In this document: positions 18,417 through 55,140 of the stretch, piece by piece
Layout of the letters: each line of letters begins with the position of its first letter
Numbering within the stretch: position 1 is the first letter of the stretch
Origin: a bacterium
GTDB lineage: Bacteria > Oederibacteriota > CAKKQC01
DNA length: 64,000 nt
Reading direction: 5' to 3'
NCBI GenBank assembly: GCA_919901855.1
Contig: CAKKQC010000021.1
Span: forward strand, 186,001 to 250,000
The notes under the pieces: generated by a model
Told to the model about the DNA's origin: nothing
Seen by the model: the letters and a program-made list of their open reading frames with translations, nothing else
Databases searched by the model: none
Translations under genes and position numbers: made by a program

Positions 18417-19346
18417 ATGGCGTCAAGGAGCATGAGGCCGAAGGCGAATACCGGGGCGGACGCGATGCCGGTGTGGGTCAGCGTCATCCCGGAGTGCAGG
18501 GGATTCGGCACCGCCAGGATGCCTGTCCCGAACTCCTCCAGGCGGAAGGGAGGATGGTGGCCCTGGCGCGTCCTCCTGGTCGAATACAAGCGCCTCCGGG
18601 AGGGGCACAGCTTTCCCGTCCACCGCCATCCGCCCGGGCTCTTCGAGTTCTACGCGGTGATGGCGGGCAAGGTGACTCTGTCGGTACGCGGGAGGGCCCC
18701 GATCGAGGTCGGGACGGGCAGGGCGGTGCTTCTTCCCTCGCTGGCCGCGCACTCGATGGAGAGCGCGGGCGGGGCCACCGTCGTGAACATGCATTTCCCC
18801 CTCTCCCGCCGCGAGCCGTGGCTGAAGATGCTCAACCTGCTCGAAGGGAAGGTATCCGGTCTTTCGCCGTCCGCAATGGCGACGGTGCGCCAGCTTGTCC
18901 AGCTCAACAGCCGGCCTCGCGCGTTGCGTCCGTACCTTGCGCACGCCCTCCTCTCCTCCATGCTCCTGAGTGCCGCTGCCGAAGCGCGTTCGGGGGTGCC
19001 GCGCGGCGTGGTGCGGGAGGCCGGCTCTCCGCTGGCGGACCGCGTACGCTGGCTGATCGAGCACCGGTTGTCCGGTCGCTGGATCAACACCGACATTGCG
19101 AAGGCGCTTGGGATGAGCGTGCGCGCGCTCGAGGAGCGTTACCGGGCCGAGACGGGCGGCTCGCTGCATGCGGCCGTGATCCGGATGCGGCTCGACCGGG
19201 CCCGGCACCTGATGGCGTCCGGATCAGTGTCGGTGAAACGGGCCGCCTTCGAGTGCGGGTTCAGGGATCCGTCGTACTTCGTGAGGGCATATCGCCGGGT
19301 CCACGGCGTCACTCCCGGGGAGCTGGTCCAGGGCCGCTCCGCCTGA
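18417..19346 (+). CDS. AraC-family transcription regulator with N-terminal cupin
   Basis: The 309-residue protein has a cupin-type sensing domain (residues about 60-140, with HSFPVHRHPPGLFEF and VLLPSLAAHSME) and a C-terminal AraC/XylS pair of helix-turn-helix motifs. The first is IAKALGMSVRALEERYRAE, and the second is VKRAAFECGFRDPSYFVRAYRR followed by the usual HGVTPGEL. It would sense a sugar and control the adjacent polysaccharide genes. A candidate operator of two direct repeats 21 bp apart lies just beyond its stop codon (19368-19397). The last 25 codons and that operator are repeated at 44269-44450. Confidence 0.95.
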   Translation: MASRSMRPKANTGADAMPVWVSVIPECRGFGTARMPVPNSSRRKGGWWPWRVLLVEYKRLREGHSFPVHRHPPGLFEFYAVMAGKVTLSVRGRAPIEVGTGRAVLLPSLAAHSMESAGGATVVNMHFPLSRREPWLKMLNLLEGKVSGLSPSAMATVRQLVQLNSRPRALRPYLAHALLSSMLLSAAAEARSGVPRGVVREAGSPLADRVRWLIEHRLSGRWINTDIAKALGMSVRALEERYRAETGGSLHAAVIRMRLDRARHLMASGSVSVKRAAFECGFRDPSYFVRAYRRVHGVTPGELVQGRSA

Positions 19347-19367
19347 CGGGAGAGGCGCCTTCGTGGA

Positions 19368-19397
19368 AAAGTACCATCGCTTGGCATGAAAGTGCCA
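19368..19397 (+). promoter_or_regulatory. AraC-type operator: two direct repeats 21 bp apart
   Basis: AAAGTACCA (19368-19376) and AAAGTGCCA (19389-19397) start exactly 21 bp apart, two helical turns, the geometry of AraC-type half-sites. An overlapping inverted pair TGGCA-N6-TGCCA (19382-19397) is also present. It sits 33 bases before the -10 box TAGGAT. Confidence 0.65.
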
Positions 19398-19400
19398 CAA

Positions 19401-19436
19401 CCCGCGCGTAGTCCGGCGCATACCGCGGGTTAGGAT
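19401..19436 (+). promoter_or_regulatory. Inverted repeat and -10 box (TAGGAT)
   Basis: CCCGCG (19401-19406) and CGCGGG (19424-19429) form a conserved inverted repeat directly before TAGGAT (19431-19436). The same arrangement appears in the right copy, where the -10 box reads TATGAT. The -10 box is followed by a true 5' leader here. Confidence 0.5.
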
Positions 19437-19501
19437 GTCCGGGGCTGGCGTTGCACTCCGCGGTGCATGTCATGGCGACCACTGAGGAGGGAAATGGCAT
19501 T

Positions 19502-20272
19502 TTGAGAACGATACGAGCGGATTGCCGGAGCATCAAGGGGCCGAAGGACAGCGCCTGGCGCCGGTGCGTGGGCGCCTGCCACGCGGCGCTCAACCTGCGC
19601 GAGGACTGGCGTCGCCAGATCGAGTTCATCCATCGGGAGTGCGGGTTCGAATACGTCCGCTTCCACGGATTGCTGGACGACGACATGGAGATCTACCATG
19701 AGGACGCGGAAGGAACCCCGTTCTACCGCTGGGAGAGGCTGGACGCTCTCTACGATTCCATCCGCAACGCCGGTATGCGCCCGTTCGTGGAGCTGGGGTT
19801 CATGCCCGGGGCGCTGGCCAGTGGCGACAAGACGATCTTCTTCTACAAGGGGAACGTAACGCCGCCGCGGTCGATCGACAAATGGGGCGGCCTGATCGAG
19901 GCGCTGGTACGCCACTGCGAAGAGCGTTCCCTGCCGCAGGATCAGCTGACCGAGCCCGACCAGGTGTTCTTCCGAGAGGACCTGGTGGCGAAGGAACGCG
20001 GACCGGTGCGCGTGGACATCGCCGGCGTTCCGGCCGGCCGCTACCGGCTGACCATCCACCGGGTTGGGTACGCCGCCAACGACCTGTTCGACGCCTATCG
20101 CCGGCTGGGCATGCCCGGGACGCCGGACGCGGACCAGCGCCGGGTCCTGGAACAGGCGACCGCCGACGAGCCGGTTGTCCAGCGGGACGTGACCGTGGGG
20201 AGCGACGGCGGATTCCGGACGGAGATCGCCCTGCGGGAAAACGACGTGTTCTTCATCGAGCTGAGGCGGTGA
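19502..20272 (+). pseudogene. GH39 beta-xylosidase remnant, catalytic core deleted
   Basis: From the TTG at 19502 this 256-residue frame has the start of a GH39 enzyme: RECGFEYVRFHGLLDDDM, VELGFMPGALASG, the FYKGNVTPPRS region and WGGLIEALVRHCEER. It then jumps at about residue 140 to a C-terminal GH39-like tail (RLTIHRVGYAANDLFDAYRRLG). Roughly 200 residues that hold both catalytic glutamates in GH39 are absent. The frame stays open, but the enzyme should be inactive. The start is uncertain; GAGGAGGG at about 19484 suggests TTG 19502, and an ATG at 19472 is possible. It is the first gene behind the left operator. Confidence 0.8.
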
Positions 20273-20302
20273 GGCCGGTCGCGTGCACGCCCGGGCGACC
20301 CG

Positions 20303-20308
20303 TACAAT
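20303..20308 (+). promoter_or_regulatory. Leaderless-type -10 box (TACAAT)
   Basis: TACAAT ends 7 bases before the ATG at 20316, which is also where a signal peptide begins. Confidence 0.5.
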
Positions 20309-20315
20309 GGGCAGG

Positions 20316-22703
20316 ATGGGATGGCTCGTTCTCCTGGGAACGGCCGTAGCGACGGCCGGCATGGCGTCCGTCCACCACACCGCAACCCTGACGATCAGGG
20401 CCGACCGGCCCGGGCCGGCGGTCAGCCCGCTTCTCTGGGGAGTCTTCTTCGAGGAAATCAACCGCGCGGGTGACGGGGGACTCCTCGCCGAGATGCTCCA
20501 GAACCGGTCGTTCGAGGACGACGCGAACGCCATGCCGGGCTGGACCCCGGTCGGCAAGGCTGTGGCAGCGCTCGACCGGTCCCGGCCGCTGAACGATCGT
20601 AATCCGGCAGCGCTGCGGCTGGTGCTCCGGTCCGCGGGCGACGGAGTGGCCAACGCCGGGTTCGGCCGGCCCGCGCGGGATGGACAGCCCGCGTACGCCG
20701 GCGGGCTCGCGATCCGGGCCGGTCGGCCGCTGATACTTTCCCTCTTCCAGCAGGCGGACAGCCCGGTCAAGCCCCTGGAGGCGCGGCTTGAAGCCGCCGG
20801 CGGCACCGTGCTCGCTCGCGCGCGGCTCCCCGCGGCCGGCACCGCGTGGTCGCGGACGGAATCGCGGCTCGTCCCGTCGGGAGACGCGGATGACGGGCGC
20901 CTGGTCATCGCCGGTACGGGAGCCGGCGAGGTCCGGCTCGACCATGTCTCGCTCGTGCCCGTGGACACGTGGAAGGGCCATGGACTGCGCCCCGATCTCG
21001 CCGGGCTGATCGCCGCGATGCGCCCGGCATTCGTCAGGTTCCCCGGCGGGTGCTTCGTCGAGGGCTGGAACCGGGCCAACGCCCTGCGCTGGAAGGACTC
21101 GATCGGCGATCCGGTGTCCCGGCGCGGCGTCGGGAATCTCTGGGGCTACCGGACCACCGGCGGGTTCGGATTCCACGAGTTCCTGCAGTGGTGCGAGGAT
21201 CTCGACGCGCAGCCGCTGTACGTCATCAACGCCGGCATGGGGCACGGGTTTGCGGTCCCCATGCAGGAGATGGGCGAATGGGTGCAGGACGCCCTCGATC
21301 TCGTCGAGTACGCCCGCAGTCCCGCCGACTCGCCGTGGGGAGCCAGGCGGGCGGCGGCGGGCCACCCGAAGCCGTTCCCGCTGAACTTGATCGAGATCGG
21401 CAACGAGAACGGCGGGCCCGAGTACAACGAGCGCTACGCGCTCTTCCACGACGCGCTCAAGAAGCGGTATCCGGACATTCAATTGATCGCGAACGTCTGG
21501 AACGGCGTCCCGGACAGCCGCCCGCGCGACCTCGACGACGAGCACGCCTACATGGACGTGGACGGATGCCTCGCGCGCGCCGGCTCGTACGACGCCCGGC
21601 CCCGCACCGGCCCGAAGGTCTATTTCGGCGAGTACGCGGTGACCAGCGGGTGTGGCCACGGCAACCTTGCGGCGGCGGTCGCGGAGGCTGCCCTCATGAC
21701 CGGAATCGAGGCCAATTCAGACCTCGTCACGATGGCGTCGTACGCCCCGCTGCTGGTGCATCCCGCCTGGAGAGCCTGGAACCCGAACGCGATCGTCTTC
21801 GATCATGCGAGAGCCTACGGCACGCCGTCGTACCACGTGCAGGCGCTGTTCGCCTCGAACCGGCCCGAGAGCAACTGTCCCGTCGCGATCCGCCAGCCGG
21901 ACCTGCCCCCTCCCGCTCCCAGCGGCTGGTTTGGCGTCGGCACGTGGGAAACGCAGGCGGAGTTCAAGGACGTTTCCTACGTGACGCCCGACGGCAGGGA
22001 ACACCTGGCTGCCGGCGCCGGTCTCGATGCATGGACGACCGCCGGTGGCACCTGGTCGGTTGCTGACGGACTCCTCCGCCAGACCGGAGGCGGGACCCCG
22101 GCCATGGCCGTGTCGAAGATCGGTCAACTCGGCGACGGCACGATCTCGATGAAGGCGCGAAAGACCGGGGGGAAAGAGGGATTCCTGATCCTGTTCCAGG
22201 CCGCAGACCACTCCCAGCACCGGTGGTGGAACCTCGGCGGCTGGGGCAACACCCGGCACGGGATCGAGCAGGTCACCGGCAATCCCCGCGTCCCCGGCTC
22301 GATCGAGACCGGCCGGTGGTACGACGTCCGGATCGAGCTGGCCGGTCCGCGGATCCGTTGTTACCTCGACGGCGCGCTCGTGCAGGACGTGGTCCGGGAA
22401 GTCCCGCAATCCGTATACGCCGTCGCGGGACTCACCAGGGACCGGCGCGAGTTGATCGTCAAGGCCGTCAACACGTCCTCCGTCACGGTGGACGCCGCAT
22501 GGACGCTCCAGGGCGTCACCCCGGTCCCGGCGCCGGGCACGGTCACCGTGCTCACCTCCGCTTCCCCCGCCGACGAGAATTCGTTCGAGGTCCCGGACCG
22601 CGTCGCCCCGGCCACCTCCCCCTTTTCGTCGGCCGGGCCCCGGTTTGCCCGCGCCCTGCCCCCGTGGTCGGTCACCATCATTCGGCTCCACCTTGTCCCC
22701 TGA
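20316..22703 (+). CDS. Secreted GH51 alpha-L-arabinofuranosidase with extra C-terminal domain
   Basis: The 795-residue protein has a signal peptide (MGWLVLLGTAVATAG). GH51 motifs follow: WGVFFEEINRAGDGGL, VRFPGGCFVEG, then the acid/base E364 in IEIGNENGGPEYNERY and the nucleophile E439 in KVYFGEYAV. The C-terminal 250 residues include a laminin-G/CBM-like beta-sandwich (GFLILFQAADHSQHRWWNLGGWG) commonly attached to GH51. The enzyme releases terminal arabinofuranose from arabinan or arabinoxylan outside the cell. It is followed after 58 bases by the large GH2 gene. Confidence 0.95.
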   Translation: MGWLVLLGTAVATAGMASVHHTATLTIRADRPGPAVSPLLWGVFFEEINRAGDGGLLAEMLQNRSFEDDANAMPGWTPVGKAVAALDRSRPLNDRNPAALRLVLRSAGDGVANAGFGRPARDGQPAYAGGLAIRAGRPLILSLFQQADSPVKPLEARLEAAGGTVLARARLPAAGTAWSRTESRLVPSGDADDGRLVIAGTGAGEVRLDHVSLVPVDTWKGHGLRPDLAGLIAAMRPAFVRFPGGCFVEGWNRANALRWKDSIGDPVSRRGVGNLWGYRTTGGFGFHEFLQWCEDLDAQPLYVINAGMGHGFAVPMQEMGEWVQDALDLVEYARSPADSPWGARRAAAGHPKPFPLNLIEIGNENGGPEYNERYALFHDALKKRYPDIQLIANVWNGVPDSRPRDLDDEHAYMDVDGCLARAGSYDARPRTGPKVYFGEYAVTSGCGHGNLAAAVAEAALMTGIEANSDLVTMASYAPLLVHPAWRAWNPNAIVFDHARAYGTPSYHVQALFASNRPESNCPVAIRQPDLPPPAPSGWFGVGTWETQAEFKDVSYVTPDGREHLAAGAGLDAWTTAGGTWSVADGLLRQTGGGTPAMAVSKIGQLGDGTISMKARKTGGKEGFLILFQAADHSQHRWWNLGGWGNTRHGIEQVTGNPRVPGSIETGRWYDVRIELAGPRIRCYLDGALVQDVVREVPQSVYAVAGLTRDRRELIVKAVNTSSVTVDAAWTLQGVTPVPAPGTVTVLTSASPADENSFEVPDRVAPATSPFSSAGPRFARALPPWSVTIIRLHLVP

Positions 22704-22761
22704 CCGAGGCGGCCCCGGGTCGGGCAAGAGCTTCGCTCCCGCAAGAACGGGGGCCTCGATA

Positions 22762-28898: not shown

Positions 28899-30046
28899 CA
28901 TTGCCGTCCCGGCTTCGCGCCGCTGCCATTCTCGCCGGCCTGACCGGAAGCCTCGTGATGATCTCGAGGGGGGCGGGCGCGGCGCCGGCATCCGAGACCC
29001 CTGCCATGGTCTTTGTCCGCCGGATGGGGCTGGGCTGGAACCTCGGCAACACGCTGGAGGCCTGCGGCGACTGGATCAAGGGCGGCCGGGTCCGCGACTA
29101 CGAAACCGCCTGGGGCAATCCGGTGACGACGCGTGAACTGGTCCATGCGATCCGGGAGGCCGGGTTCGGGTCGGTCCGGATTCCCGTGGCCTGGTCGAAC
29201 CTGATGGGCGAAAACTTCACGATTGATACCCGGCTCCTCGAGCGCGTCGGCCGGGTGGTCGATGACGTGCTGGATGAAGGCATGGTCGCCGTCGTCAATA
29301 TCCACTGGGACGGCGGCTGGTGGGAGCACTTCCAGACGGACGAGCCCGGCACCATGCGCCGGTACACCCGGATGTGGTCCCAGATCGCCGGGCACTGCCG
29401 GGACCGGTCAACGAATCTCGTCTTCGAGTCGCTCAACGAGGAGGGGAACTTCCCGAAGCTCTGGGATCCCTACAAGCCCGGACAGGCGGAGGGCAAGCGG
29501 CAGGCGTACGCCATCCTCAACCGGATCAACCAGGCCTTTGTGGACCTGACCCGCACCTCCGGTGGCATGAACGGCGTCCGGCCGCTCCTCATCGCGGGGC
29601 ATTCAACCGACATCGACCGGACGACCGACCCCGAATTCCGCATGCCGACGGACCCGGCGAAGATGTCCATCGTCTCGGTGCACTACTACACGCCCTCCAC
29701 GTTCGCCATTCTTGAGAAGGACGCGTCGTGGGGCAAGGCCAGATCCACCTGGGGGACGAGGGAAGACCTCAAGGAACTCGACGACAACTTCAAGAAACTG
29801 CACGAGCGGTTCCTCACGCAGGGCATTCCGGTGATCGTGGGCGAGTACGGCGGGGCGGCGAAGAACAAGGACCCGGTCAGCGTGCGGACCTACAACCTGA
29901 CGATCGCCGGGAGGGCCTTGCGGCTGGGCATGTGCCCGATGCTCTGGGACGCCGGCGGGTACTTCAACCGGAAGATCCTCCGGTTCAACGATCCGGAACT
30001 CGCCGACGGGTTCCGGAAGCTCGCCGCACCGGACCGGACGCCATGA
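28895..30046 (+). CDS. Secreted GH5 endo-beta-glycanase
   Basis: The 383-residue protein has a signal peptide and one GH5 catalytic domain: GLGWNLGNTLEACG, FGSVRIPVAW, NIHWDGGWWEHF, the acid/base E182 in FESLNEEG and the nucleophile E317 in VIVGEYGG. It has no extra binding module. GH5 enzymes include cellulases, mannanases and xyloglucanases; this sequence looks cellulase-like, but the subfamily was not determined. Its stop overlaps the start of the GH29 gene (ATGA), so the two are translationally coupled. Confidence 0.9.
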   Translation: MTLPSRLRAAAILAGLTGSLVMISRGAGAAPASETPAMVFVRRMGLGWNLGNTLEACGDWIKGGRVRDYETAWGNPVTTRELVHAIREAGFGSVRIPVAWSNLMGENFTIDTRLLERVGRVVDDVLDEGMVAVVNIHWDGGWWEHFQTDEPGTMRRYTRMWSQIAGHCRDRSTNLVFESLNEEGNFPKLWDPYKPGQAEGKRQAYAILNRINQAFVDLTRTSGGMNGVRPLLIAGHSTDIDRTTDPEFRMPTDPAKMSIVSVHYYTPSTFAILEKDASWGKARSTWGTREDLKELDDNFKKLHERFLTQGIPVIVGEYGGAAKNKDPVSVRTYNLTIAGRALRLGMCPMLWDAGGYFNRKILRFNDPELADGFRKLAAPDRTP

Positions 30047-32169
30047 CCCGGCTGGACGCCGACGATTCAGAGGAGGCCGTGCTGGCCAAGGCGGCGCAGG
30101 TGCGGCCGACCGCCCGCCAGCTCGCGTGGCAGCGCGACGAGATCTCGGCCTTCGTGCATTTCGGGATGAACACCTTCACGAACCGCGAATGGGGGGACGG
30201 ATCGGAGGATCCCGCGCTGTTCAACCCGGCCGCCCTCGATGCCGGGCAGTGGGCCCGCGCGGCGAAGTCGGCCGGCATCACGCGCATGATCCTCACGGCC
30301 AAGCACCACGACGGATTCTGCCTGTGGCCCACCCGGTACACCGAACACTGCGTAAGGAGCAGCCCCTGGAAGGGCGGCCGGGGCGACGTGCTGGGGGAAT
30401 TCGTCGCGGCGTGCCGTACGCAAGGCCTGCGCTACGGCGTCTATCTCTCGCCGTGGGACCGGCACGAGCGGAGTTACGGTGATTCCCCCCGGTACAACCG
30501 GTATTTCCTGAACCAGCTCCGGGAGGTGTTGACGACCTATCCCGGATTCGAGGAAGTCTGGTTCGACGGCGCCTGCGCGGAGGGACCCAATGGCAGGAAG
30601 CAGGAGTACGACTGGCGCGCGTACTGGCGGCTGATCCGGGAACTCGCACCATCCGCGACGATCAGCGTCCGGGGACCGGATGTCCGCTGGTGCGGGAACG
30701 AGGCGGGACACGCCCGGGTCAGTGAGTGGAGCGTCATCCCGATGCCCGGCGACGGACGGGCGTGGGAGCGCTCCGACGAGACGCTGGGAGGTTATCTGCG
30801 GGACATCCACGGGGACGACCTGGGCAGCCGGCAGGCGCTGATGCGAAGTCGGGGAGATCGGGCGAGGCTGGCGTGGTACCCCAGCCAGGTGAACACGTCC
30901 ATCCGCCCGGGCTGGTTCTACCATGAGAACGAGGACGACCGCGTCCGCCCGCTCGGCGAGTTGCTGGACGTCTACTACGGTTCGGTCGGCGGAAACGGCC
31001 AGTTCCTCCTCAACATTCCGCCGGACCGGAGGGGCCTGTTCCATGAGCGGGATGTCGCCCGGCTCGCGCAGTTCGGCGGGGTCCTCAAGCAGACGTTCGG
31101 TCGGGATCTCGCGGCGGGAGCCCGGCTGACCGCGGAGGTGACCGGCGGCGCTTCGGTGGGCGACCCGACATCGCTGCTGGACGGCGATCCCGGCACGTTC
31201 TGGACCACGACGGACGGCGCGACCACGGTCACGATCACCGCGGAATGGCCGGCCCCGGTCCGGGCCAACTGCCTCTCGCTTCAGGAGTACATCGCCTCGG
31301 GCCAGCGCGTCGAGACCTTCGACGTGGAGATCCTCACGGAGGGGGGGTGGTCACGGGTCGCCGGCGGGACCGTCATCGGTCACAAACGGTTGGTCCGCTT
31401 CGCCGATGCCACCCTCTCCGGCGTCAGGGTCCATTTCACGCGATTCCGTCTCCGGCCCGCGTTGACGGGCCTCGGCCTGTATCTGGCTCCCGCGATCCTG
31501 GCCGGACCGAAGATCGCCCGCGACCTCGGGGGCCTCGTGACGATCACACCGCCGGCGGGAGCATACGCGCGTTACACCCTGGACGGCACCGATCCGACGG
31601 ATGCCTCGGCGCGGTACACGAACACGATCCCGCTGCCCCGGGGCGGCGTCATGCAGGCGGCTTCCTTCCCGTTGACCCCGGGCGGGGAGATCGCCGGCAG
31701 CGGGCCGGTGGCGAGCCGCGTCGAGTACGGACCGGCGAAGGGGAAATGGAAGATCCTGAGTTGCGATTCCCAGGATGACGCCGGCGGCCGGGCCGAGCGC
31801 GCGATCGACGACGATCCCGGGACGTTCTGGGAGACCCGGCACCGCGACGGCACCGACCCCGGGCCGCACCATCTCGCGGTGGACCTGGGCGAGACCGTGG
31901 CGGTGCGCGGATTCTCGTACACGCCGCGCCAGGACGGCTGGGACGGCGGCATCGTCATGCAGGCCAGATTCGAGGTCAGCCTTGACGGAACGAACTGGGT
32001 TGTGGCCGCGGATCGGGTGGGGTTTGACAACATCGTCAACAGCCGGACGCAGCAGATCGTGAGGCTGGCCGCGCCCGTGTCCGCCCGATATTTCAGGATG
32101 ACGGCGCTGCGGACCGTAGGCGACAGTGACCGGGCGTCGGCGGCCGAGATTGATGTGATCGTCGGATAG
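30043..32169 (+). CDS. GH29 alpha-L-fucosidase with F5/8-type C-terminal domain
   Basis: This 708-residue protein starts by ATGA overlap with the GH5 gene and has no signal peptide. The GH29 domain covers residues about 20-345: EISAFVHFGMNTF, LTAKHHDGFCLWP and the nucleophile Asp175 in EVWFDGA, then PGWFYHENEDDRVR. Residues about 350-475 and 575-708 carry F5/8-type (CBM32-like) beta-sandwiches separated by a chitobiase-type module (YTLDGTDPTD). It removes terminal alpha-L-fucose or a similar sugar from side chains. The lack of signal suggests action on imported oligosaccharides. A 26-bp piece of its C-terminal domain recurs at 36048-36073. Confidence 0.9.
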   Translation: MTRLDADDSEEAVLAKAAQVRPTARQLAWQRDEISAFVHFGMNTFTNREWGDGSEDPALFNPAALDAGQWARAAKSAGITRMILTAKHHDGFCLWPTRYTEHCVRSSPWKGGRGDVLGEFVAACRTQGLRYGVYLSPWDRHERSYGDSPRYNRYFLNQLREVLTTYPGFEEVWFDGACAEGPNGRKQEYDWRAYWRLIRELAPSATISVRGPDVRWCGNEAGHARVSEWSVIPMPGDGRAWERSDETLGGYLRDIHGDDLGSRQALMRSRGDRARLAWYPSQVNTSIRPGWFYHENEDDRVRPLGELLDVYYGSVGGNGQFLLNIPPDRRGLFHERDVARLAQFGGVLKQTFGRDLAAGARLTAEVTGGASVGDPTSLLDGDPGTFWTTTDGATTVTITAEWPAPVRANCLSLQEYIASGQRVETFDVEILTEGGWSRVAGGTVIGHKRLVRFADATLSGVRVHFTRFRLRPALTGLGLYLAPAILAGPKIARDLGGLVTITPPAGAYARYTLDGTDPTDASARYTNTIPLPRGGVMQAASFPLTPGGEIAGSGPVASRVEYGPAKGKWKILSCDSQDDAGGRAERAIDDDPGTFWETRHRDGTDPGPHHLAVDLGETVAVRGFSYTPRQDGWDGGIVMQARFEVSLDGTNWVVAADRVGFDNIVNSRTQQIVRLAAPVSARYFRMTALRTVGDSDRASAAEIDVIVG
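31762..31787 (+). repeat. 26-bp repeat inside GH29 (copy of 36048-36073)
   Basis: This stretch codes for CDSQDDAGG in the second F5/8-type domain. It matches 36048-36073 at 25 of 26 positions. Confidence 0.7.
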
Positions 32170-32181
32170 AAGGGAGACACG

Positions 32182-34497
32182 ATGATGAACAGATGGCGGT
32201 GGGCCGGACTCGTCCTGATGATCGCCTCGCAGTCGGCGGGGGCCGGGACGCTGACGGTGGACGCTTCCAAGGAGCTTCGCACCATGGATCGTCGGCGCCT
32301 GCTGGGCACCAACGTCGCGGGGTGGTACTTCAAGAAGACGTACGACAACCCGGTGCTGCGGGGTTGGATCAGGGACCTGGGCCCGATTCTGATCCGCCTG
32401 CCCGGAGGAAGCTGGGGGGACGGCACGTTCTGGAACGGGAACGGCGTGCGGCACGGCGACGACGTGGACTACTCCCGGTTCAACCCCAAGCCGTATTCCG
32501 CGTGGTCGGCCCCGTGGGGCACCTGGAACATCGACTACTCGGACTGGGCACCGGGTTTCCTGGTGGACGTCAAACCCAACGAGAGGCCCAGGATGCTCTC
32601 GACCAAGTGGCACGGTCACGTGGACGTCAAGACGATGCACGAATTCATCCGCGACCTCGGCGATGAGCCGTTCGTCATCGTGAACGCCGGCACGGGATCC
32701 CCCCGCGACGCGGCCGAGTGGGTGCGCTGGGCGAACAAGAAGATGGGATACAACGTTCGATACTGGGAGGTCGGGAACGAACAAGGGGGGTCGTGGGAAG
32801 CCGGCCACTTCCTGCCGGACGGCACGGAACTCAACGGGAACATCTTCGCCCGCCGGTACGAGGAATTCGCCCGGGCCATGAAGGCCGTGGATCCGACCAT
32901 CAAGGTGGGGTGCATGGACTGGCTGGAAGAGGTGTTGAAGCAGTGCGGCGATCAGCTCGATTTCTTCTCCATCCACGCCTACCCCGCCGGGATCGGCACG
33001 GGGCCGGGCGCGATGCCCGACGATGAACTCTTCTCCAAGCTGGACGAGGTCCGGAGGACCATGGATGAAGCCAAAGCCATCATCCGCCGGGTCCGGCCCG
33101 ACCGGGAGGGGAAGATCGAGATCAACTTTTCCGAGTGGAACATGGGCTGGGCGGACATGCGCGGGGCCCTCTGGCACGCCGGATGGGTGGGAGAAATGTT
33201 CCGGCACGGAGCGGCCTTTGCCATGCAGTGGGATGTCTTCGCCATGGTGGCGGAGGCGGAGCCCGGGAGCATGCGCCGGAGCATCTACTGGCCGTTCTGG
33301 CTGTGGAGCCGGGCCATGGGCGACACGCTGGTGGCTTCGGAACTCACGGGCGCGAAGAACGCCGCGGTGTACGCCACCCGGTCGGACCGGGGTCTTTCGA
33401 TCATGGTCATCAACCAGTCGACATGGGACCCGGTCGATCTCGACGTGAATCTGCGGGGCTTCACGCCCGGTCCGGCCGGCCGGGAGTTCCGGTTCACCCC
33501 CCGGGAGTTCTTCTGGCTGGACCGCGAGCCGGAGAAGCCCGAAGGGAAGAAGCGGCCCGCGGAGATCTGGAATACCGGCCCGGCCGTCAGGGCGTTCAAG
33601 GCCGGAGCGTCCTTCCGGGCGTCGGTCCCGCCGTCGTCGATCATCGTGTACGCGATCCCCGCCGCGGGGCAGGAGCCCGCGGTGGCGGAGACCAGTGATC
33701 CCGCTCCGCGGACGCCGAACCTGGCGCTGTGGATTCCGCCGGAGCTGTACGCCGGAGACCAGGTGGAAGCCTGGGTGTTTGCGCGCAACGGCGATGAGGA
33801 CGCCCCGTATCCGCTTCCGCTGGAGGACGGGCGCATCAGCCTCCAGGGGCCGGTGACGGCCGACCGGCGGACCATCGGGCTCCCGCAGTCGGTCGGGAGA
33901 TTCTTCATCAAGGGCGACCGCCCCGGGTCCGCCACGGTGGAGGTCCAATCCGGGAAATGGAAGGTGAGCCGGAACGTGGTGTTCAAGCCTTCAGTGCCGA
34001 AACCCCGGATCCTCTGGGACTTCGAGGGACCGACGCTGCCCGCGTCGGTGCGATCGCAGTGGAAAGTCGAATATGACGCCAGCGTCCGCCCCAATCAGCA
34101 GGTGTGCAAGATCACCCTGGATGGCGGGATTCCGGACAGTGACCGGCTGCGCGAGCTCCTGGTGGTCTCGGACTTCCCTGGAGAAGACAAGCTCGACCGG
34201 AAGAACATCCGGGGGGCCGTGTTCGACATCCGTCTGGCTCCCGATTTCGCGACCGGCGATCCGGACGCCTACATCGAAGCCGTGATGCAGAGCCCCATCA
34301 ACTGGTGGATGCCGCTGGGACGGATAAGGCTGTCGGACCTCACGCGCGGGGAGTGGAAGACCGAAACGCTCCTCACCGCCGACCCCGGGCACATCAAGGC
34401 CATGCCCAAGGCGTTCGATCTCTGGATTACCATCAGGTCGAAATCGCCCGTGATCGGTTCGATCGCTCTGGATCGCGTCGGCTTGATGGTGCGATGA
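32182..34497 (+). CDS. Secreted clan GH-A glycosidase (GH51/GH39-like), paralog 1
   Basis: The 771-residue protein has a signal peptide (WAGLVLMIASQSAGA). The N-terminal half looks like a clan GH-A TIM barrel with acid/base E200 in RYWEVGNEQGGSW and nucleophile E318 in INFSEWNMGW. LIRLPGGSWGDGTFWNG resembles the RFPGG region of GH51. It is not a standard GH51 or GH39 sequence, and I cannot assign a family. Residues about 520-770 form an uncharacterised beta-rich C-terminal region. It lies 12 bases after the GH29 gene and its stop overlaps the GH43 gene start. A close paralog is at 52368-54656, roughly two-thirds identical by eye. Confidence 0.75.
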   Translation: MMNRWRWAGLVLMIASQSAGAGTLTVDASKELRTMDRRRLLGTNVAGWYFKKTYDNPVLRGWIRDLGPILIRLPGGSWGDGTFWNGNGVRHGDDVDYSRFNPKPYSAWSAPWGTWNIDYSDWAPGFLVDVKPNERPRMLSTKWHGHVDVKTMHEFIRDLGDEPFVIVNAGTGSPRDAAEWVRWANKKMGYNVRYWEVGNEQGGSWEAGHFLPDGTELNGNIFARRYEEFARAMKAVDPTIKVGCMDWLEEVLKQCGDQLDFFSIHAYPAGIGTGPGAMPDDELFSKLDEVRRTMDEAKAIIRRVRPDREGKIEINFSEWNMGWADMRGALWHAGWVGEMFRHGAAFAMQWDVFAMVAEAEPGSMRRSIYWPFWLWSRAMGDTLVASELTGAKNAAVYATRSDRGLSIMVINQSTWDPVDLDVNLRGFTPGPAGREFRFTPREFFWLDREPEKPEGKKRPAEIWNTGPAVRAFKAGASFRASVPPSSIIVYAIPAAGQEPAVAETSDPAPRTPNLALWIPPELYAGDQVEAWVFARNGDEDAPYPLPLEDGRISLQGPVTADRRTIGLPQSVGRFFIKGDRPGSATVEVQSGKWKVSRNVVFKPSVPKPRILWDFEGPTLPASVRSQWKVEYDASVRPNQQVCKITLDGGIPDSDRLRELLVVSDFPGEDKLDRKNIRGAVFDIRLAPDFATGDPDAYIEAVMQSPINWWMPLGRIRLSDLTRGEWKTETLLTADPGHIKAMPKAFDLWITIRSKSPVIGSIALDRVGLMVR

Positions 34498-36014: not shown

Positions 36015-36047
36015 AGTGCGGCGAGAATGACCAGGAGGACTTGGCGC

Positions 36048-36073
36048 TGCGATTCCCAGGATGATGCCGGCGG
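36048..36073 (+). repeat. Fragment of GH29/F5-8 domain in intergenic region
   Basis: These 26 bases match 31762-31787 at 25 of 26 positions. They lie in the 212-base gap between the GH43 and GH95 genes. The rest of the gap (36015-36226) contains an open frame of unknown origin but no recognisable gene, so this looks like debris from a second F5/8-type domain. Confidence 0.6.
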
Positions 36074-36226
36074 AAGCGGAGGACGGGACGCACGGGGGTC
36101 GGCGCGCGTGTTCAGTCTGGCGCTGGGCCTCGTCACCTCCGGCGCGTGGGACGGGCGCATCTTTCTCGAGACCCTCACTTCGGACCTGGACCGCGTGATG
36201 GTGACGAGACGGGTTCACTGCGGAGA

Positions 36227-38512: not shown

Positions 38513-38593
38513 GGCCGGGGGCACGCCTCGGGCATTTCGCGCGCGTTCGTGAGGGCAATGGGGGGCGTAGTGCGGAGCGATGTTGTGGAAGCG

Positions 38594-38615
38594 CCTTGGT
38601 ACCATGGAACCTTGG
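38594..38615. promoter_or_regulatory. Three CCWTGG boxes at 8-bp period upstream of ABC importer
   Basis: CCTTGG (38594), CCATGG (38602) and CCTTGG (38610) follow one another with 2-base gaps (TA, AA). The repeat period of 8 bp lies about 50 bases before the ABC binding-protein gene. It may be an operator. The rest of the 150-base gap shows only the ribosome-binding site. Confidence 0.4.
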
Positions 38616-38662
38616 GCGAGGAACGAGGCCGCAGGACTTTCAAGGAAAGGGAGGGGTGACCG

Positions 38663-39619
38663 ATGAGATTGAAGCGAGGAATGCTGGCGTGCGCGGCCGC
38701 GGTGGCGGTGCTGGGCGCGGGGTGCGGAAAAGCGGGCGGGGATAAGCTCAACGTCGCCTTCGTGACCAACAACGCGTCGGACTTCTGGACGATCGCCCGG
38801 GCGGGGTGCAACAAGGCGGTGTCTGAACTGCCCGGAGTGGGGCTGGAGTTCCAGATTCCGTCGGACGGCTCGGCGGCGACGCAGAAGCGGATCCTGGATG
38901 ACCTGCTGGCGAAGGGTATCCGGGGCGTCGCGATCAGCCCCGTGGATCCGGCCAACCAGACGCTCCTGCTCAACGAGGTGGCCAGGAAGGCGTTGCTGGT
39001 GACCCAGGATAGCGATGCGCCTCAGAGCGATCGCGCGTGCTACATCGGCACGGACAACGTGGCCGCGGGGCGGCAGGCGGGGGACCTCATCAAGCGGTTC
39101 CTGCCGCGGGGCGGAAGGATCATGGTGTTCGTGGGCACGCTGGACGCGCAGAACGCGCGGGAGCGGTTGGAGGGGATCAAGCAGGCGATTAAGGGGAGCG
39201 CGGTGCGGATCGTGGACGTGCGGACCGACGAAACGGACCGGGTTCGGGCCAAGGCGAACGTGCTCGACGCGCTGGTGAAGTACCCCGGCTTGGCCTGCCT
39301 GGTCGGGCTCTGGAGCTACAACGGCCCGGCGATCCTGAACGCGGTCAAGGAGTCGGGAAAAACGGGCAGGATCGGAATCGTGTGCTTCGACGAGGAGGAG
39401 GAGACGCTGGAAGGAGTCCGGTCCGGCGCGATCTTCGCCACGGTCGTTCAGCAACCGTACGAGTTCGGCTACCGGGCCGTGCACCTCATGGCGAAAGTCT
39501 TGCAGGGCGACAAGTCCGCGATACCCGCGAGCCGGAAGATCATCGTCCCCACGCTCGCGATCTCGAAGGATGGCGTGGACGAGTTCGCGGCGCGCCTCAA
39601 AGTTCTCCGTGGCAGATGA
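38663..39619 (+). CDS. Sugar ABC transporter substrate-binding lipoprotein
   Basis: The 318-residue protein has a lipoprotein signal with LGAG-C at Cys22. The rest has the ribose/galactose-binding fold of cluster B (periplasmic binding protein type 1): VAFVTNNASDFWTIARAGC, GVAISPVDPANQ, GTDNVAAGRQAGDLIKR, FDEEEETLEGVRSGAI. It would capture a monosaccharide or small sugar and deliver it to the permease. An AAGGGAGGGG ribosome-binding site precedes the ATG. Its stop overlaps the ATP-binding gene, forming a three-gene importer. Confidence 0.95.
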   Translation: MRLKRGMLACAAAVAVLGAGCGKAGGDKLNVAFVTNNASDFWTIARAGCNKAVSELPGVGLEFQIPSDGSAATQKRILDDLLAKGIRGVAISPVDPANQTLLLNEVARKALLVTQDSDAPQSDRACYIGTDNVAAGRQAGDLIKRFLPRGGRIMVFVGTLDAQNARERLEGIKQAIKGSAVRIVDVRTDETDRVRAKANVLDALVKYPGLACLVGLWSYNGPAILNAVKESGKTGRIGIVCFDEEEETLEGVRSGAIFATVVQQPYEFGYRAVHLMAKVLQGDKSAIPASRKIIVPTLAISKDGVDEFAARLKVLRGR

Positions 39620-41133
39620 TCCCTGGCGGGGCGGACCATCCCCTTCTTGAGGTCCGTGGGGTAACCAAGCGGTTTCCCGGCGTTCTGGCCCTCGACGGCG
39701 TGAACCTTACGGTCAAGGCCGGAGAGGTGGTGGGACTGGTCGGGGAAAACGGGGCGGGCAAGTCCACGCTCATGAACCTCTTGGGCGGTGTCCACCAGCC
39801 CGACGCGGGCTCGATTGTCATCGACGGCCGGCCGGTCGAGATCCGGTCCGCGCGCGCCTCGATCGCGCTGGGAATCGGGTTCATCCACCAGGAGTTGACG
39901 GTACTGGACAACCTGGACGCGCCGGGGAACATCCTGCTGGGACGCGAGCCGGTGCGCGGCGGTCCGTTGCGGCTCCTGGATCGCGCGGCGATGCTTTCGG
40001 CGGCGCGGGAACCGCTGGCGCGCCTGGGGATCGCGGCTTCCCCCGGCGTGCCGCTCAGGGACCTTTCGCTCGCCCAGCGGCAGATGGTCGAGATCGCCAA
40101 GGTCCTTTCGAGGCATGCCCGCCTGATCATCATGGACGAGCCCACCAGCCGGCTCACTCCGGCGGAGACGGACCGGCTGCTTGCGGTGGTACGCGACCTG
40201 AAGGCGCAAGGAGCGGGCGTGATCCTGATCTCGCACCGGCTCGGGGAGGTCGGGGCGTGCGCGGACCGGGTGGTGGTCCTGCGGGACGGACGCAACGCGG
40301 GCGAGCTGGCGCGCCAGGAGATCTCTCACGACCGGATGGTCCGGCTCATGGTCGGGCGGGAGCTGGCCCGGGCTCCCGCGCGGGCGGCCCTGCCGGAGCG
40401 GGCCCCGGCGCTCGAGGTGCGGGGGTTGGTGGTCCGGGCCCGGCCGCAGTGCGCGGTGAGCTTCGAGGTGGCCGCCGGGGAGATCCTGGGACTCGCGGGG
40501 CTCGTGGGGGCGGGGCGCTCGGAGCTGGCGCAGGCGCTGTTCGGGATCGATCCTCCGCTCGCGGGGGACATCCTCGTGGACGGCCGGCCGGTCGCGGTTC
40601 GCTTCCCCCGTGACGCGATCGCGGCGGGGATCGCGCTCGTTCCCGAGGACCGGCACACCGCGGGGCTCGTCGTGGAAATGACGGTGCGGGAGAACCTGAC
40701 GCTTGCCTGCCTCGGGCAGTTCACGAGGATTGGGCTGATCCGGGCGAAGCCGGAGAAGGATTTCGCCCGCGGTCGGTGCGCGGCGCTCGCGATCCGGACG
40801 CCCTCGGTGGAGGCTCCGGTTCAAAGCCTGAGCGGCGGCAACCAGCAGAAGGTCGCGGTCGGCAAGTGGCTTTCCCCCCCTCCCCGGGTACTGATCCTGG
40901 ACGAGCCGACGCGGGGGGTTGACGTGGGGGCGAAGGCCGAGATCTATTCCCTCATGCGGGATCTGGTGGAAGGAGGCGTCGGAATACTGATGATCAGCTC
41001 CGACATGGAGGAGGTGCTGGGGGTCAGCGACCGGGTTGCGGTGATGCACGAGGGACGGCTCGCGGGAGTCCTGGGGCGCGACGCGTTCGGGGAGGAGGCG
41101 GTGATGCGACTGGCGGTGGGGAGCGCGGGATGA
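39616..41133 (+). CDS. Sugar ABC transporter ATP-binding protein (two ABC domains)
   Basis: A 505-residue ribose/galactose-type ATPase with two ABC domains. The first has Walker A GENGAGKST, the LSLAQRQMVEI signature region and Walker B LIIMDEPTS. The second has the degenerate Walker A (GAGRSE) typical of this family, plus LSGGNQQKVAVGKW and LILDEPTRGVD. It starts at an ATG inside the previous stop (ATGA). It couples ATP hydrolysis to import with the permease that follows. Confidence 0.95.
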   Translation: MIPGGADHPLLEVRGVTKRFPGVLALDGVNLTVKAGEVVGLVGENGAGKSTLMNLLGGVHQPDAGSIVIDGRPVEIRSARASIALGIGFIHQELTVLDNLDAPGNILLGREPVRGGPLRLLDRAAMLSAAREPLARLGIAASPGVPLRDLSLAQRQMVEIAKVLSRHARLIIMDEPTSRLTPAETDRLLAVVRDLKAQGAGVILISHRLGEVGACADRVVVLRDGRNAGELARQEISHDRMVRLMVGRELARAPARAALPERAPALEVRGLVVRARPQCAVSFEVAAGEILGLAGLVGAGRSELAQALFGIDPPLAGDILVDGRPVAVRFPRDAIAAGIALVPEDRHTAGLVVEMTVRENLTLACLGQFTRIGLIRAKPEKDFARGRCAALAIRTPSVEAPVQSLSGGNQQKVAVGKWLSPPPRVLILDEPTRGVDVGAKAEIYSLMRDLVEGGVGILMISSDMEEVLGVSDRVAVMHEGRLAGVLGRDAFGEEAVMRLAVGSAG

Positions 41134-42098
41134 GCCGCAAGGAGTTGGCCCTCGCGCTTCTGCTCGCCGTGCTGTGCGCGGCGACCGCGGCGCTCAACCC
41201 GCGGTTCCTGGGGGTGGACAATCTTCAGAACATGGCCCGCCTGACCGGGCTGTTCGGCATCTTCAGCATCGGGCTCGGGGCGGCGATCATCACGGGGGGG
41301 ATCGACCTTTCGGTGGGCTCGTTGTTCGCGCTCCAGGGCGTTCTGCTGGCGATGGCCCTGCGCGAGTGGAACTGGGGCTGGGCGGTCGCGGTGGCGGCGG
41401 CGCTGGCGGGGCCGGCCGCGCTGGGCTGGCTGCACGGCTGGCTGGTGGTGCGGATGCGGCTACAGCCGTTCATCGTGACGCTGTGCGGCCTCCTCGTGTA
41501 CCGCGGCGCGGCACGGTTCCTGGCGAACGATGAGACCAAGGGCTTCGGGAGCGGGAACTTCGGGCCCCTGCGGGCGCTGGCCGCCGGCGACGTACTGGGC
41601 GTGCCGATGTCCTTCGTCCTGCTGCTGGCGGTGGCGGCCGTAACGGGTGTCCTCCTGAACCGCTCGGTGTACGGGCGCTGGCTCCTGGCGACCGGGCGCA
41701 ACGAAGAGGCGGCGCGTTATTCGGGCGTTCCCACGGCGCGCGTGATCATGGGCGCGTACGTGGTCTCCGGTGCGCTGGCGGGCGTTTCGGGAATCCTGAT
41801 CGCGTTCTACACCAACTCGATCTCTCCCGCCTCCCACGGCAACTTCTACGAGTTGTACGGCATTGCCGCGGCCGTCCTGGGCGGCTGTACCCTGCGCGGC
41901 GGCGAGGGCTCCGTGACCGGTATCGTGATCGGCACCGCGATCCTGCAGGTGCTTCAGAACCTGGTCAACCTTCTGGGCATTCCCAGCTCCCTCAACTTCG
42001 CGGTGATGGGGGCGGTCATCCTGCTCGGCGTCCTCGCCGACGAGCTGGTGGGGAGGTGGAGGCCGGGAGGCGGGGGCGGGCGGCCCAACTCGACTTGA
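41130..42098 (+). CDS. Sugar ABC transporter permease
   Basis: The 322-residue permease has about eight to ten hydrophobic segments and the motifs of the ribose/galactose permease family: GIDLSVGSLFALQGV, PFIVTLCGLLVYRGAARF, GNEEAARYSGV-like cytoplasmic loop and AAAVLGGCTLRGGEGSVTG. It starts by ATGA overlap with the ATPase gene. It forms the membrane channel of the importer. Confidence 0.95.
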   Translation: MSRKELALALLLAVLCAATAALNPRFLGVDNLQNMARLTGLFGIFSIGLGAAIITGGIDLSVGSLFALQGVLLAMALREWNWGWAVAVAAALAGPAALGWLHGWLVVRMRLQPFIVTLCGLLVYRGAARFLANDETKGFGSGNFGPLRALAAGDVLGVPMSFVLLLAVAAVTGVLLNRSVYGRWLLATGRNEEAARYSGVPTARVIMGAYVVSGALAGVSGILIAFYTNSISPASHGNFYELYGIAAAVLGGCTLRGGEGSVTGIVIGTAILQVLQNLVNLLGIPSSLNFAVMGAVILLGVLADELVGRWRPGGGGGRPNST

Positions 42099-42116
42099 TA
42101 GGATCGAATCAATTCG
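42099..42116 (+). promoter_or_regulatory. -10 box (TAGGAT) followed by inverted repeat
   Basis: TAGGAT (42099-42104) lies right after the permease stop. It is followed directly by a perfect inverted repeat CGAAT-CA-ATTCG (42105-42116). This would place an operator over the transcription start of the dehydrogenase genes. Confidence 0.4.
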
Positions 42117-42132
42117 GACGAGGAGGAGGACA

Positions 42133-43224
42133 ATGGATATCCCGCGGAAGATGAAGGGTGCCGTTCTGCCCGGGAACAGCGCCGTCGTGATCAGGGAATA
42201 CGACGTGCCCGAACCCGGGCATGGCGAAGTGCTCATCAGGATCAAGTCGTCCACGATCTGCGGGAGCGACATCCGCGCGATATACCGCGAGCACCTGGGC
42301 AAGGGGCCGGAGGGGTACCGGGGGGTGATCGCGGGCCACGAGCCGTGCGGGCAGATCGTCCGTGCCGGCCCGGGGATGCGCCGGTTCAAGGAGGGCGACC
42401 GGGTCATCGTCTACCACATCTCGGGGTGCGGGGTGTGCTACGACTGCCGGCGCGGCTACATGATCAGTTGCACGAGCCCGGAGTTCCGCCGAGCCTACGG
42501 GTGGCAGAGGGACGGCGGGATGGCGGAGTACATGCTCGCGGAGGAGAAGGACCTGGTCGCCCTTCCCGGGTTCCTGACCTACACCGACGGCGCGCAGGTC
42601 GCGTGCGGCTTCGGGACGGCGTACGAGGGCCTGCGGAAGGTCGGCGTGTCGGGCGACGATGCGGTGCTGGTGACGGGTCTCGGGCCGGTGGGGCTCGCGA
42701 CCCTGATGCTCGCCAAGGCGATGGGGGCGCGGATGCTGATAGGCGCCGACGTGGTCCCCGAGCGCCTCGACCTCGCGCGGCGGCTGGGCCTCGCCCGCCA
42801 CGTCCTCGTGTCCGGCCCGGACACCGTCGGCGAGGTCAGGAAGATCACGGGCGGGGCGGGCTGCGAGCGGACCGTCGACTGCTCCGCCAACGACCAGGCG
42901 CGCCTCCTCTGCATCCAGGCGGCGCGGAGGTGGGGCCGGATATGCTTCATCGGCGAGGGGGGGACGGTGTCCTTCCAGCCCAGTCCGGACATCATCCACG
43001 ACCAGAAGAGGATATACGGGAGCTGGGTGACCAGCACCTGGCTGATGGAGGAGCTGGCGGAGCGGCTGGCGGCGTGGGAGCTGCACCCCGACGCCCTCGT
43101 GACGCACCGGTTCCCGCTGGGCCGGGCCGGAGACGCCTACGCCCTCATGGCGGGCGGGAAGTGCGGCAAGGTCGCCGTCGCCTTCGACGAGGAACTGGCC
43201 CCGGCCGGGAAGGGGGCGGCATGA
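42133..43224 (+). CDS. Zinc-dependent alcohol/polyol dehydrogenase (MDR family)
   Basis: This 363-residue medium-chain dehydrogenase has the catalytic zinc site (ICGSDIRAIYRE, AGHEPCGQIV), the four-cysteine structural zinc loop (CGVCYDCRRGYMISC) and the NAD(P)-binding GLGPVGLATLML motif. It is likely to oxidise a sugar, polyol or aldose in the cytoplasm. GAGGAGGAGGA precedes the ATG by about 3 bases. It overlaps the aldo/keto reductase gene and lies behind the ABC importer, so it probably handles the imported sugar. Confidence 0.9.
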   Translation: MDIPRKMKGAVLPGNSAVVIREYDVPEPGHGEVLIRIKSSTICGSDIRAIYREHLGKGPEGYRGVIAGHEPCGQIVRAGPGMRRFKEGDRVIVYHISGCGVCYDCRRGYMISCTSPEFRRAYGWQRDGGMAEYMLAEEKDLVALPGFLTYTDGAQVACGFGTAYEGLRKVGVSGDDAVLVTGLGPVGLATLMLAKAMGARMLIGADVVPERLDLARRLGLARHVLVSGPDTVGEVRKITGGAGCERTVDCSANDQARLLCIQAARRWGRICFIGEGGTVSFQPSPDIIHDQKRIYGSWVTSTWLMEELAERLAAWELHPDALVTHRFPLGRAGDAYALMAGGKCGKVAVAFDEELAPAGKGAA

Positions 43225-44243
43225 AGCCCGGCGACGGCGTGGACCCCGGCCAGGTCCCGTTCCGGACCCTCTACACCGGGGCCAGGATGCCCGGGGTCGG
43301 GCTGGGGACATTCGGGTCCGACCACGCGTCGCCCGCCGCCGTGGGATCCGCGGTTCGCGCCGCCATCCGCGCGGGCTACCGGCACATCGACTGCGCGTCG
43401 GTATACGGCAACGAGGCCGAGGTCGGGGCCGCCATCCGCGAGGCCGTCCGCGACGGCGTCGTGCGGCGCGAGGATCTCTGGATAACCTCGAAAGTCTGGA
43501 ACGACATGCACGGGAAGCGGAACGTCATGCTCTCGTGCGCGAGGTCGCTCAGGGACCTCGGACTCGACTACCTCGACATGTGCCTCGTCCACTGGCCGTT
43601 CCCGAACACCCACTCCGCGGGTTGCTCCGTCGACGCCCGGAGCCCCGACGCCCGGGCGTATCTCCACGAGGAGTACATGGAAACCTGGGGGGCGATGGAG
43701 CGGCTGGTGGGCATGGGGATGACAAGGCACGCCGGCACTTCGAACATGACCGTGCCGAAACTCAGGCTGGTGCTCCGGGACGCCCGGATCAGGCCCGCCT
43801 GTGAGGAGATGGAACTGCACCCGCACTTCCAGCAGCAGGAGCTCTTCGACTTCGTGACGGCCAGCGGGATGGTCCCGGTGGGCTATTCCCCCGTCGGCTC
43901 GCCAGCGCGGCCGGAGCGGGACAGGACGCCGGACGACACGGTCGACGTCGAGGACCCCGTCGTGAGGAGGATCGCGGCGGCGCATGGGATCCACCCGGCG
44001 ACGCTGTGCGTGAAGTGGGGGGCGCAGCGGGGCCATGTGCCCATCCCCTTCACCACCAGCCTGGCCCACGGCCTCGAGAACCTGCGGTGCGTGACAACCC
44101 CGCCCCTGAGCGCGGCCGAGATGGAGGCAATCGCGGGCATCGACAGGAACTGCCGGCTCATCAAGGGCCACGTCTTCCTGTGGAAGGACGGCCAGACCTG
44201 GGAGGCCCTCTGGGACACGGACGGAAGGATCACCCCGCCGTAG
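43221..44243 (+). CDS. Aldo/keto reductase
   Basis: The 340-residue protein has the AKR catalytic tetrad: D57, Y62 (CASVYGNE), the Lys in TSKVWN and the His in LVHWPF. It has the (alpha/beta)8 barrel order, and ends with the usual GLENLRCVT and FLWKDGQ region. It uses NAD(P)H to reduce aldoses or ketones. Its ATG overlaps the dehydrogenase stop. Together they could interconvert an aldose, its polyol and its ketose. The right-hand repeat copy begins 25 bases after its stop. Confidence 0.9.
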   Translation: MKPGDGVDPGQVPFRTLYTGARMPGVGLGTFGSDHASPAAVGSAVRAAIRAGYRHIDCASVYGNEAEVGAAIREAVRDGVVRREDLWITSKVWNDMHGKRNVMLSCARSLRDLGLDYLDMCLVHWPFPNTHSAGCSVDARSPDARAYLHEEYMETWGAMERLVGMGMTRHAGTSNMTVPKLRLVLRDARIRPACEEMELHPHFQQQELFDFVTASGMVPVGYSPVGSPARPERDRTPDDTVDVEDPVVRRIAAAHGIHPATLCVKWGAQRGHVPIPFTTSLAHGLENLRCVTTPPLSAAEMEAIAGIDRNCRLIKGHVFLWKDGQTWEALWDTDGRITPP

Positions 44244-44268
44244 TCGGGAAGCGCCACACATTGGGACC

Positions 44269-44346
44269 CCGTCGTACTTCGTGAGGGCGTATCGCCGGGT
44301 CCACGGTGTCACTCCTGGCGATTTCGTGCGGCGCCGCTCCGCCTGA
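44269..44346 (+). pseudogene. AraC regulator 3' fragment
   Basis: Twenty-five codons plus stop, PSYFVRAYRRVHGVTPGD..., match the end of the AraC protein at 18417-19346 with a few substitutions. The last residues diverge (FVRRRSA instead of LVQGRSA). Nothing upstream of 44269 belongs to AraC, so the fragment was carried by a duplication. Confidence 0.85.
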
Positions 44347-44367
44347 CGGGAAGGGAACTTCCGTAGA

Positions 44368-44397
44368 AAAGTACCATCGTTCGGCATGAAAGTGCCA
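44368..44397 (+). promoter_or_regulatory. AraC-type operator, right copy
   Basis: AAAGTACCA (44368-44376) and AAAGTGCCA (44389-44397) start 21 bp apart, as in the left copy. The TGGCA-N6-TGCCA arms are changed only at the edge base. It is placed to control the giant cysteine-rich protein gene. Confidence 0.65.
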
Positions 44398-44400
44398 TGA

Positions 44401-44436
44401 CCCGCGCGTGTTCCTGCGCATGCCGCGGGTTATGAT
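44401..44436 (+). promoter_or_regulatory. Inverted repeat and -10 box (TATGAT), right copy
   Basis: CCCGCG (44401-44406) and CGCGGG (44424-44429) precede TATGAT (44431-44436). The -10 box is closer to consensus than in the left copy. The next 85 bases are an untranslated leader. Confidence 0.5.
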
Positions 44437-44521
44437 TTCTCGGGCTGGCGGTTCGCGGGAGCTCCGCCGGTCCCGGGCTATTACCATGACGACTGGGGGG
44501 GCAGACGAGGAGATCGAGTTG

Positions 44522-48298: not shown

Positions 48299-48315
48299 CG
48301 CTCGAATAGCGCGCC

Positions 48316-48335
48316 GACCGCGTCCCGGCGCGGTC
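48316..48335. terminator. Hairpin after giant protein gene
   Basis: GACCGCG and CGCGGTC form a perfect 7-base stem around TCCCGG, 18 bases after the stop. No T tract follows, so termination is only likely. The rest of the gap to 48398 holds no gene. Confidence 0.4.
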
Positions 48336-48397
48336 TCCGGGGGCCCCTCCGGGCCAGTCTGCGCGTCCATCTCCTCCGGGGTCCCCAAGGCTATGCC

Positions 48398-52216: not shown

Positions 52217-52353
52217 TGGCACGGCGTGTTGCGCCGGGACATGCGATGATGGCGGACATGCCGCCTGGGATCGCCAGCATGAAGGGCCGACCATTCCGCC
52301 CCGATCGCGCCGCGGTGGGTGTGGTGTCGTCGGCAGGCCGTGCTCGTGCCATG

Positions 52354-52360
52354 AAGGAGG
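52354..52360 (+). promoter_or_regulatory. Strong ribosome-binding site
   Basis: AAGGAGG lies 7 bases before the ATG at 52368 and decides that start over other in-frame codons. The rest of the gap 52217-52367 shows no gene or promoter I can defend. Confidence 0.7.
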
Positions 52361-52367
52361 CAATTGC

Positions 52368-55081: not shown

Positions 55082-55125
55082 AGAATCCGGGAGCCTGCCT
55101 CCGCCCTGAGTGGGCGGCAAGTGCG

Positions 55126-55131: not shown

Positions 55132-55140
55132 ACCCCTGCC

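Follow-up and report, generated by a model that had tools for sequence, protein, structure and literature searches.

Polysaccharide utilisation loci typically place one local regulator beside the genes for glycosidases, an importer and sugar dehydrogenases. In the XylS/Pm, MekR and MtlR systems, direct repeats with a 21-bp period lie upstream of the promoter and the regulator gene stands beside a catabolic operon; the XylS (TGCA-N6-GGNTA-N6-...) and MekR sites share this period (PMC4514859). Promoter capture by duplication, in which a copied promoter is joined to a different gene and brings it under new control, has been described for the citrate transporter in the E. coli long-term experiment (Blount et al. 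2012) and for the his genes of Salmonella (Anderson and Roth 1978), both as cited in PMC11111574.

The window (the whole 64,000-nucleotide stretch of DNA that was analysed) contains an AraC-type regulator gene whose 3′ end, together with the promoter that follows, occurs a second time 25 kb downstream. The repeat period and the position of the regulator beside a catabolic operon are like those of XylS/Pm, MekR and MtlR; unlike in those systems, there are two promoters 25 kb apart and an additional inverted repeat, and the system is known from sequence alone. A local regulator next to glycosidases, an importer and sugar dehydrogenases is shared with polysaccharide utilisation loci in general, from which the locus differs in its two operator-identical promoters derived by duplication, in its ABC importer and in the lineage-restricted family of large secreted proteins in the second gene set. 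The joining of a copied promoter to a different gene, here with predicted new control, is shared with the citrate and his cases; the age of the event, the operator control of the captured promoter and the piece of regulator gene brought along with it set this locus apart. Promoter capture, or regulon expansion by duplication, is a known process, and this locus is a good example of it and not a new mechanism. The locus is notable for its age, for a captured operator accompanied by the regulator remnant and for a clear footprint that one genome is enough to show. As an instance of a regulon widened through promoter duplication it is natural, old and well resolved.

Two copies of an AraC gene end and its promoter

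18417-19346, + strand: AraC-type regulator gene, full length (309 aa), cupin-like sensor and HTH_18 (Pfam)
19269-19450, + strand: P, left copy; last 25 AraC codons, stop codon and operator/promoter (153/182 identical to 44269-44450)
44269-44450, + strand: P′, right copy; 25-codon AraC tail and operator/promoter (alignment to the left copy)

The regulator belongs to the AraC/XylS family according to its C-terminal double helix-turn-helix (Pfam HTH_18, E=4.9e-21; HTH_AraC, E=9.6e-13), and its N-terminal sensor domain scored above the cut-off for AraC_binding (E=1.4e-7) and Cupin_2 (E=5.2e-8). Among the NCBIfam equivalogs, including RhaS, AraC and QhpR, all scores were far below the cut-off, the best being QhpR with 59 against 250 bits. 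Only two genes with an AraC-type helix-turn-helix were found in the genome, this regulator gene being one of them.

Self-alignment of the window showed that P and P′ match without gaps at 153 of 182 positions (84.1%) at an offset of exactly 25,000 bp, a round figure that is a coincidence; the pair was also detected in a BLASTN self-comparison (E ~1e-50). Among the 182-base ungapped matches at all offsets in the window it ranks second, behind the X/X′ gene pair described below (165/182, offset 20,183). The edges are sharp: in 20-bp windows, identity rises from 14/20 at 19260 to 19/20 at 19270 and falls from 12/20 at 19440 to 5/20 at 19450, and it is at background within about 10 bp on either side. 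The similarity starts at 19269 within the AraC gene (CCG TCG TAC ...) and ends at about 19450; any continuation into the leader is marginal, 2.8% of random windows scoring as high, and is not claimed. Since the ungapped 84% identity takes in AraC coding sequence that is not regulatory, the two copies are of common descent and not the product of convergence. P carries the final 25 codons and the stop codon of the full gene. P′ holds those 25 codons only, and they start 25 bp after the stop codon of the aldo/keto reductase gene. The ungapped match of about 84% at a distance of 25,000 bp, the right copy reduced to 25 codons, and the presence in each segment of an AraC end, a direct-repeat operator, an inverted repeat and a −10 box had all been proposed in a sequence-only reading of this DNA, and every one of these elements was found.

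The 182-bp unit has only two copies in its own genome (4.68 Mb, 91 contigs) and no match in 44 other genomes of the phylum or among the PLSDB plasmids. No orthologue of the P/P′ locus occurs in the sole genome of the same family, which is fragmented and 83% complete, or in 43 other genomes of the phylum, and AraC relatives found in GTDB contigs are distant only (23-32% identity). The counter-explanation named by the sequence-only reading, ordinary paralogues each with a full AraC gene in many relatives, found no support, as the relatives examined do not have the locus. That reading had further suggested that recombination between the repeats could delete or amplify the whole block, and this part is weak. 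P and P′ have no exact run of more than 20 bp in common, which falls short of the minimal RecA/RecBC segment of 23-27 bp given in PMC12074656, and no genome with a hybrid-repeat junction in place of the block was present among the same-family genome and the 43 other genomes of the phylum. With a 20-bp longest run, 84% identity and a distance of 25 kb, such events should be rare.

Conservation of the operator

19368-19376, + strand: direct-repeat half-site 1, AAAGTACCA, left; identical in the right copy at 44368-44376
19389-19397, + strand: direct-repeat half-site 2, AAAGTGCCA, left; 21 bp from half-site 1; identical at 44389-44397
44368-44397, + strand: right direct-repeat operator, both half-sites unchanged (sequence comparison)
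19399-19431, + strand: inverted repeat AACCCGCG-N17-CGCGGGTT, left
44396-44434, + strand: inverted repeat CATGACCCGCG-N17-CGCGGGTTATG, right, this copy beginning GACCCGCG
19431-19436, + strand: −10-like hexamer TAGGAT, left, without a −35 consensus
44431-44436, + strand: −10-like hexamer TATGAT, right

Behind the AraC end, each copy shows the arrangement typical of AraC-type operators, with two half-sites in tandem that are spaced by about two turns of the helix and lie ahead of the promoter. The direct repeat, with its 12-bp spacer and 21-bp period, is free of mismatches at 19368-19397 and 44368-44397, where shuffled sequence is expected to give no such repeat. In the 4.68-Mb genome it occurs at exactly these two sites even if three mismatches are allowed; the reversed pattern, used as a control, gave 7 chance matches. 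The inverted repeat common to both copies (ACCCGCG...CGCGGGT) lies between the operator and the −10 hexamer. Scanning revealed no σ70 consensus pair at either promoter, the −35 consensus being absent. If transcription starts about 7 bp past the hexamer, the direct repeat would be centred near −60.

In the stretch from the AraC stop codon to 19450, the half-sites with their flanks and the inverted-repeat arms contain no change in 43 positions, compared with 19 changes in the 61 other positions (Fisher p=1.3e-5). This wider operator definition was partly shaped by the conservation itself; a stricter set of half-sites and arms only gave the weaker result of 1/34 against 18/70 (p=0.0055). Intergenic positions outside the operator have diverged by about 25-30%. 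Both promoters therefore appear to be under selection, and the strongest indication of their use is that the operator was kept in each while the spacer diverged over a long time. As the same operator is seen twice while the spacer has diverged, a single genome suffices to read the putative binding site as a footprint.

Gene sets behind the two promoters

19502-20272, + strand: GH39-like gene that opens the set behind P (only positions 6-139 of the 472 of Pfam Glyco_hydro_39 are matched)
29728-32169, + strand: GH29-type α-L-fucosidase reading frame (Pfam)
32182-34497, + strand: X, arabinofuranosidase-like secreted enzyme (weak NCBIfam ArfA match; paralogue X′)
38663-42098, + strand: ABC sugar importer; binding protein, ATPase and permease (Pfam)
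42133-44243, + strand: zinc alcohol/sugar dehydrogenase, then aldo/keto reductase ending at 44243 (Pfam)

The left set runs in the order GH39-GH51-GH2-PL10/GH43-GH5-GH29-X-GH43-GH95-importer-dehydrogenase, and the Pfam matches bear out the earlier statement that the block between the repeats holds glycosidases, an ABC importer and sugar dehydrogenases. In the GH39-like gene the middle of the catalytic barrel is apparently missing, in frame; the assignment of its C-terminal part is our own reading. The enzyme content points to a fucosylated and arabinosylated hemicellulose as the likely substrate, and on the same grounds a pentose or fucose would be a plausible inducer.

44441-48305, + strand: D1 with its own leader (86-87% nucleotide identity to a gene on contig C75, G000:C75, L066:10318-6443, minus strand)
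48398-52216, + strand: D2, second large secreted β-rich protein of the D1 family (sequence comparison)
52170-54656, + strand: X′, paralogue of X with 66% amino acid identity, homology from 52440
54691-54948, + strand: GH29 remnant of about 86 codons directly after X′, corresponding to residues 390-475 of the protein encoded at 29728-32169

The right set is a mosaic. The coding sequence of D1, which stands first behind P′, extends from about 44522 (GTG, with GAGGAG upstream) to 48298, and its homology to the C75 gene starts, in a permissive alignment, at 44441-44475, where the P/P′ homology stops. The junction between P′ and D1 is therefore placed at about 44441-44450, with a short overlap GGGC(T)GGCG; a sequence homologous to the promoter of another gene is here joined to an unrelated coding sequence, which is what defines promoter capture. 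D2 is a more distant family member with its best match (56%) on contig C22. X and X′ form a second duplication (32257-34404 and 52440-54563; 75% DNA and 66% protein identity); each is the closest match of the other in the phylum, and the two are clearly more alike in the N-terminal half (up to 92% of DNA positions) than in the C-terminal half. The gene order is permuted, X′ preceding the GH29 tail on the right whereas GH29 precedes X in the block. Identity at silent or four-fold sites is 71% for D1 and the C75 gene and 54% for X/X′, and it is 69% at the non-operator intergenic positions of P/P′ (54% vs 69%, p=0.045). Dating by identity is rough, and what is said of the succession and direction of events depends on small counts and degrees of identity; with this proviso, the promoter and D1 may have been joined at about the same time, after X and X′ had split.

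Proposed origin and control of the second promoter

We consider it likely that an old duplication of the AraC 3′ end and promoter yielded a copy that was joined to D1, and that the AraC-type protein acts on both operons. The 3′ end of the activator gene was duplicated together with the promoter that follows, and the promoter copy would have been fused near 44441-44450 with the start of D1, whose own duplication was a separate one. At both promoters the direct repeat with its 21-bp period is probably the binding site of a dimer of the 18417-19346 protein, which would activate both operons, presumably in trans. Two sets would be co-induced: the operon from GH39 through the ABC importer to the aldo/keto reductase, and D1-D2-X′, which encode large secreted β-rich proteins and an arabinofuranosidase-like enzyme. 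Each set is assumed from gene spacing to form one transcript, and operator conservation lends indirect support to P′ driving D1. The suggestion of the sequence-only reading that a duplication or insertion placed a second operon under the same regulator is borne out in so far as the duplication is real, the right AraC copy is a tail only, P′ fronts a different gene set and the operator has been kept. A simple 25-kb unit of duplication or insertion is not supported, since D1 was copied from elsewhere in the genome, X′ is an older copy of a gene inside the block and the GH29 tail is permuted.

One alternative is that a short piece of about 182 bp was all that was copied, and that the right AraC tail is a mere passenger which at no time belonged to a working gene; this would explain why just 25 codons are left right behind the aldo/keto reductase gene and why no further AraC remnant was found in the genome. 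The codon pattern of the tail speaks against it: the changes between P and P′ at codon positions 1, 2 and 3 number 2, 1 and 7, so that third positions hold 7 of the 10 (p=0.02), and positions 1 and 2 differ at 3 of 52 sites compared with 19 of 61 in the neighbouring spacer. Had the right tail been non-coding throughout, about 8 changes at positions 1 and 2 would be expected on that branch, and only 3 are seen in total (p ~0.03). This pattern is a moderate hint of a formerly longer AraC′ gene next to P′ that has since lost most of its length, and we regard the short piece as a possible but somewhat doubtful account. Tandem duplication of the whole 25-kb block, with the second copy mostly lost and P′, X′ and the GH29 tail as leftovers, would yield exactly the junction of reductase end and AraC tail at 44243-44269 and would place X′ and the GH29 tail on the right. 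It is unlikely, as X′ precedes the GH29 tail in reverse of the block order, X/X′ have diverged more than P/P′ at silent sites, and D1 is a copy from another contig.

It seems improbable that P′ is a functionless relic and that D1 uses its own promoter, as its C75 paralogue may. The paralogue does have TATAAT right before its leader, ahead of ATGGCGAC, whereas D1 reads TATTAC at this place, a change consistent with a switch to P′, and the operator positions of P′ are unchanged amid the diverged spacer. An assembly artefact, of which the distance of exactly 25,000 bp might be taken as a sign, can be practically dismissed, as an assembly copy is incompatible with the 29 substitutions in 182 bp, which are distributed in a selection-like pattern, and the window contains no N. 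For a lineage that has no close relatives, the duplication of the AraC end and promoter, with probable capture of D1, suggests a concrete regulon of two promoters, and it points to family-restricted large secreted proteins as part of a response to plant polysaccharides.

D1 and D2 (44408-52216) belong to a family of secreted β-rich proteins of about 1,270 amino acids containing DUF11. The genome holds 14 full-length and 3 partial copies and the one same-family genome at least 14, and none occurred in the 43 other genomes of the phylum. The neighbours of sampled family members vary widely (GH31, OTCase, a sigma factor, an O-antigen ligase, a mannosyltransferase). The AlphaFold model of a D protein is all-β with a mean pLDDT of 69; a search for a specific structural relative gave, among the PDB matches listed, TM-scores of 0.17 at most and generic arrays of β-domains only. 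The other AraC-type gene found in the genome adjoins a D-family gene divergently (L061:4679-10257, G000:C10). As both of the AraC-type genes found are tied to a D gene, one through P′ before D1 and the other through the divergent regulator on contig C10, one might speculate that D-family genes have repeatedly been put under local substrate-responsive regulators by shuffling of promoters and gene cassettes in this bacterial family, though we think this unlikely. If it were so, the D proteins would work as surface or capture modules that can replace one another to suit different substrates.

The window also contains two apiosidase-like genes (55110-56405 and 61971-63374), 7 kb apart and with 44% protein identity. 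The one at 61971 is preceded by a second promoter-like repeat at 61906-61954, which comprises TTGACC, a GGGC/GCCC hairpin and TTCAATA and has only two copies in the genome; the other copy (G000:C21:268630-268678, 88% identity over 49 bp) lies before another gene about 20.7 kb away.
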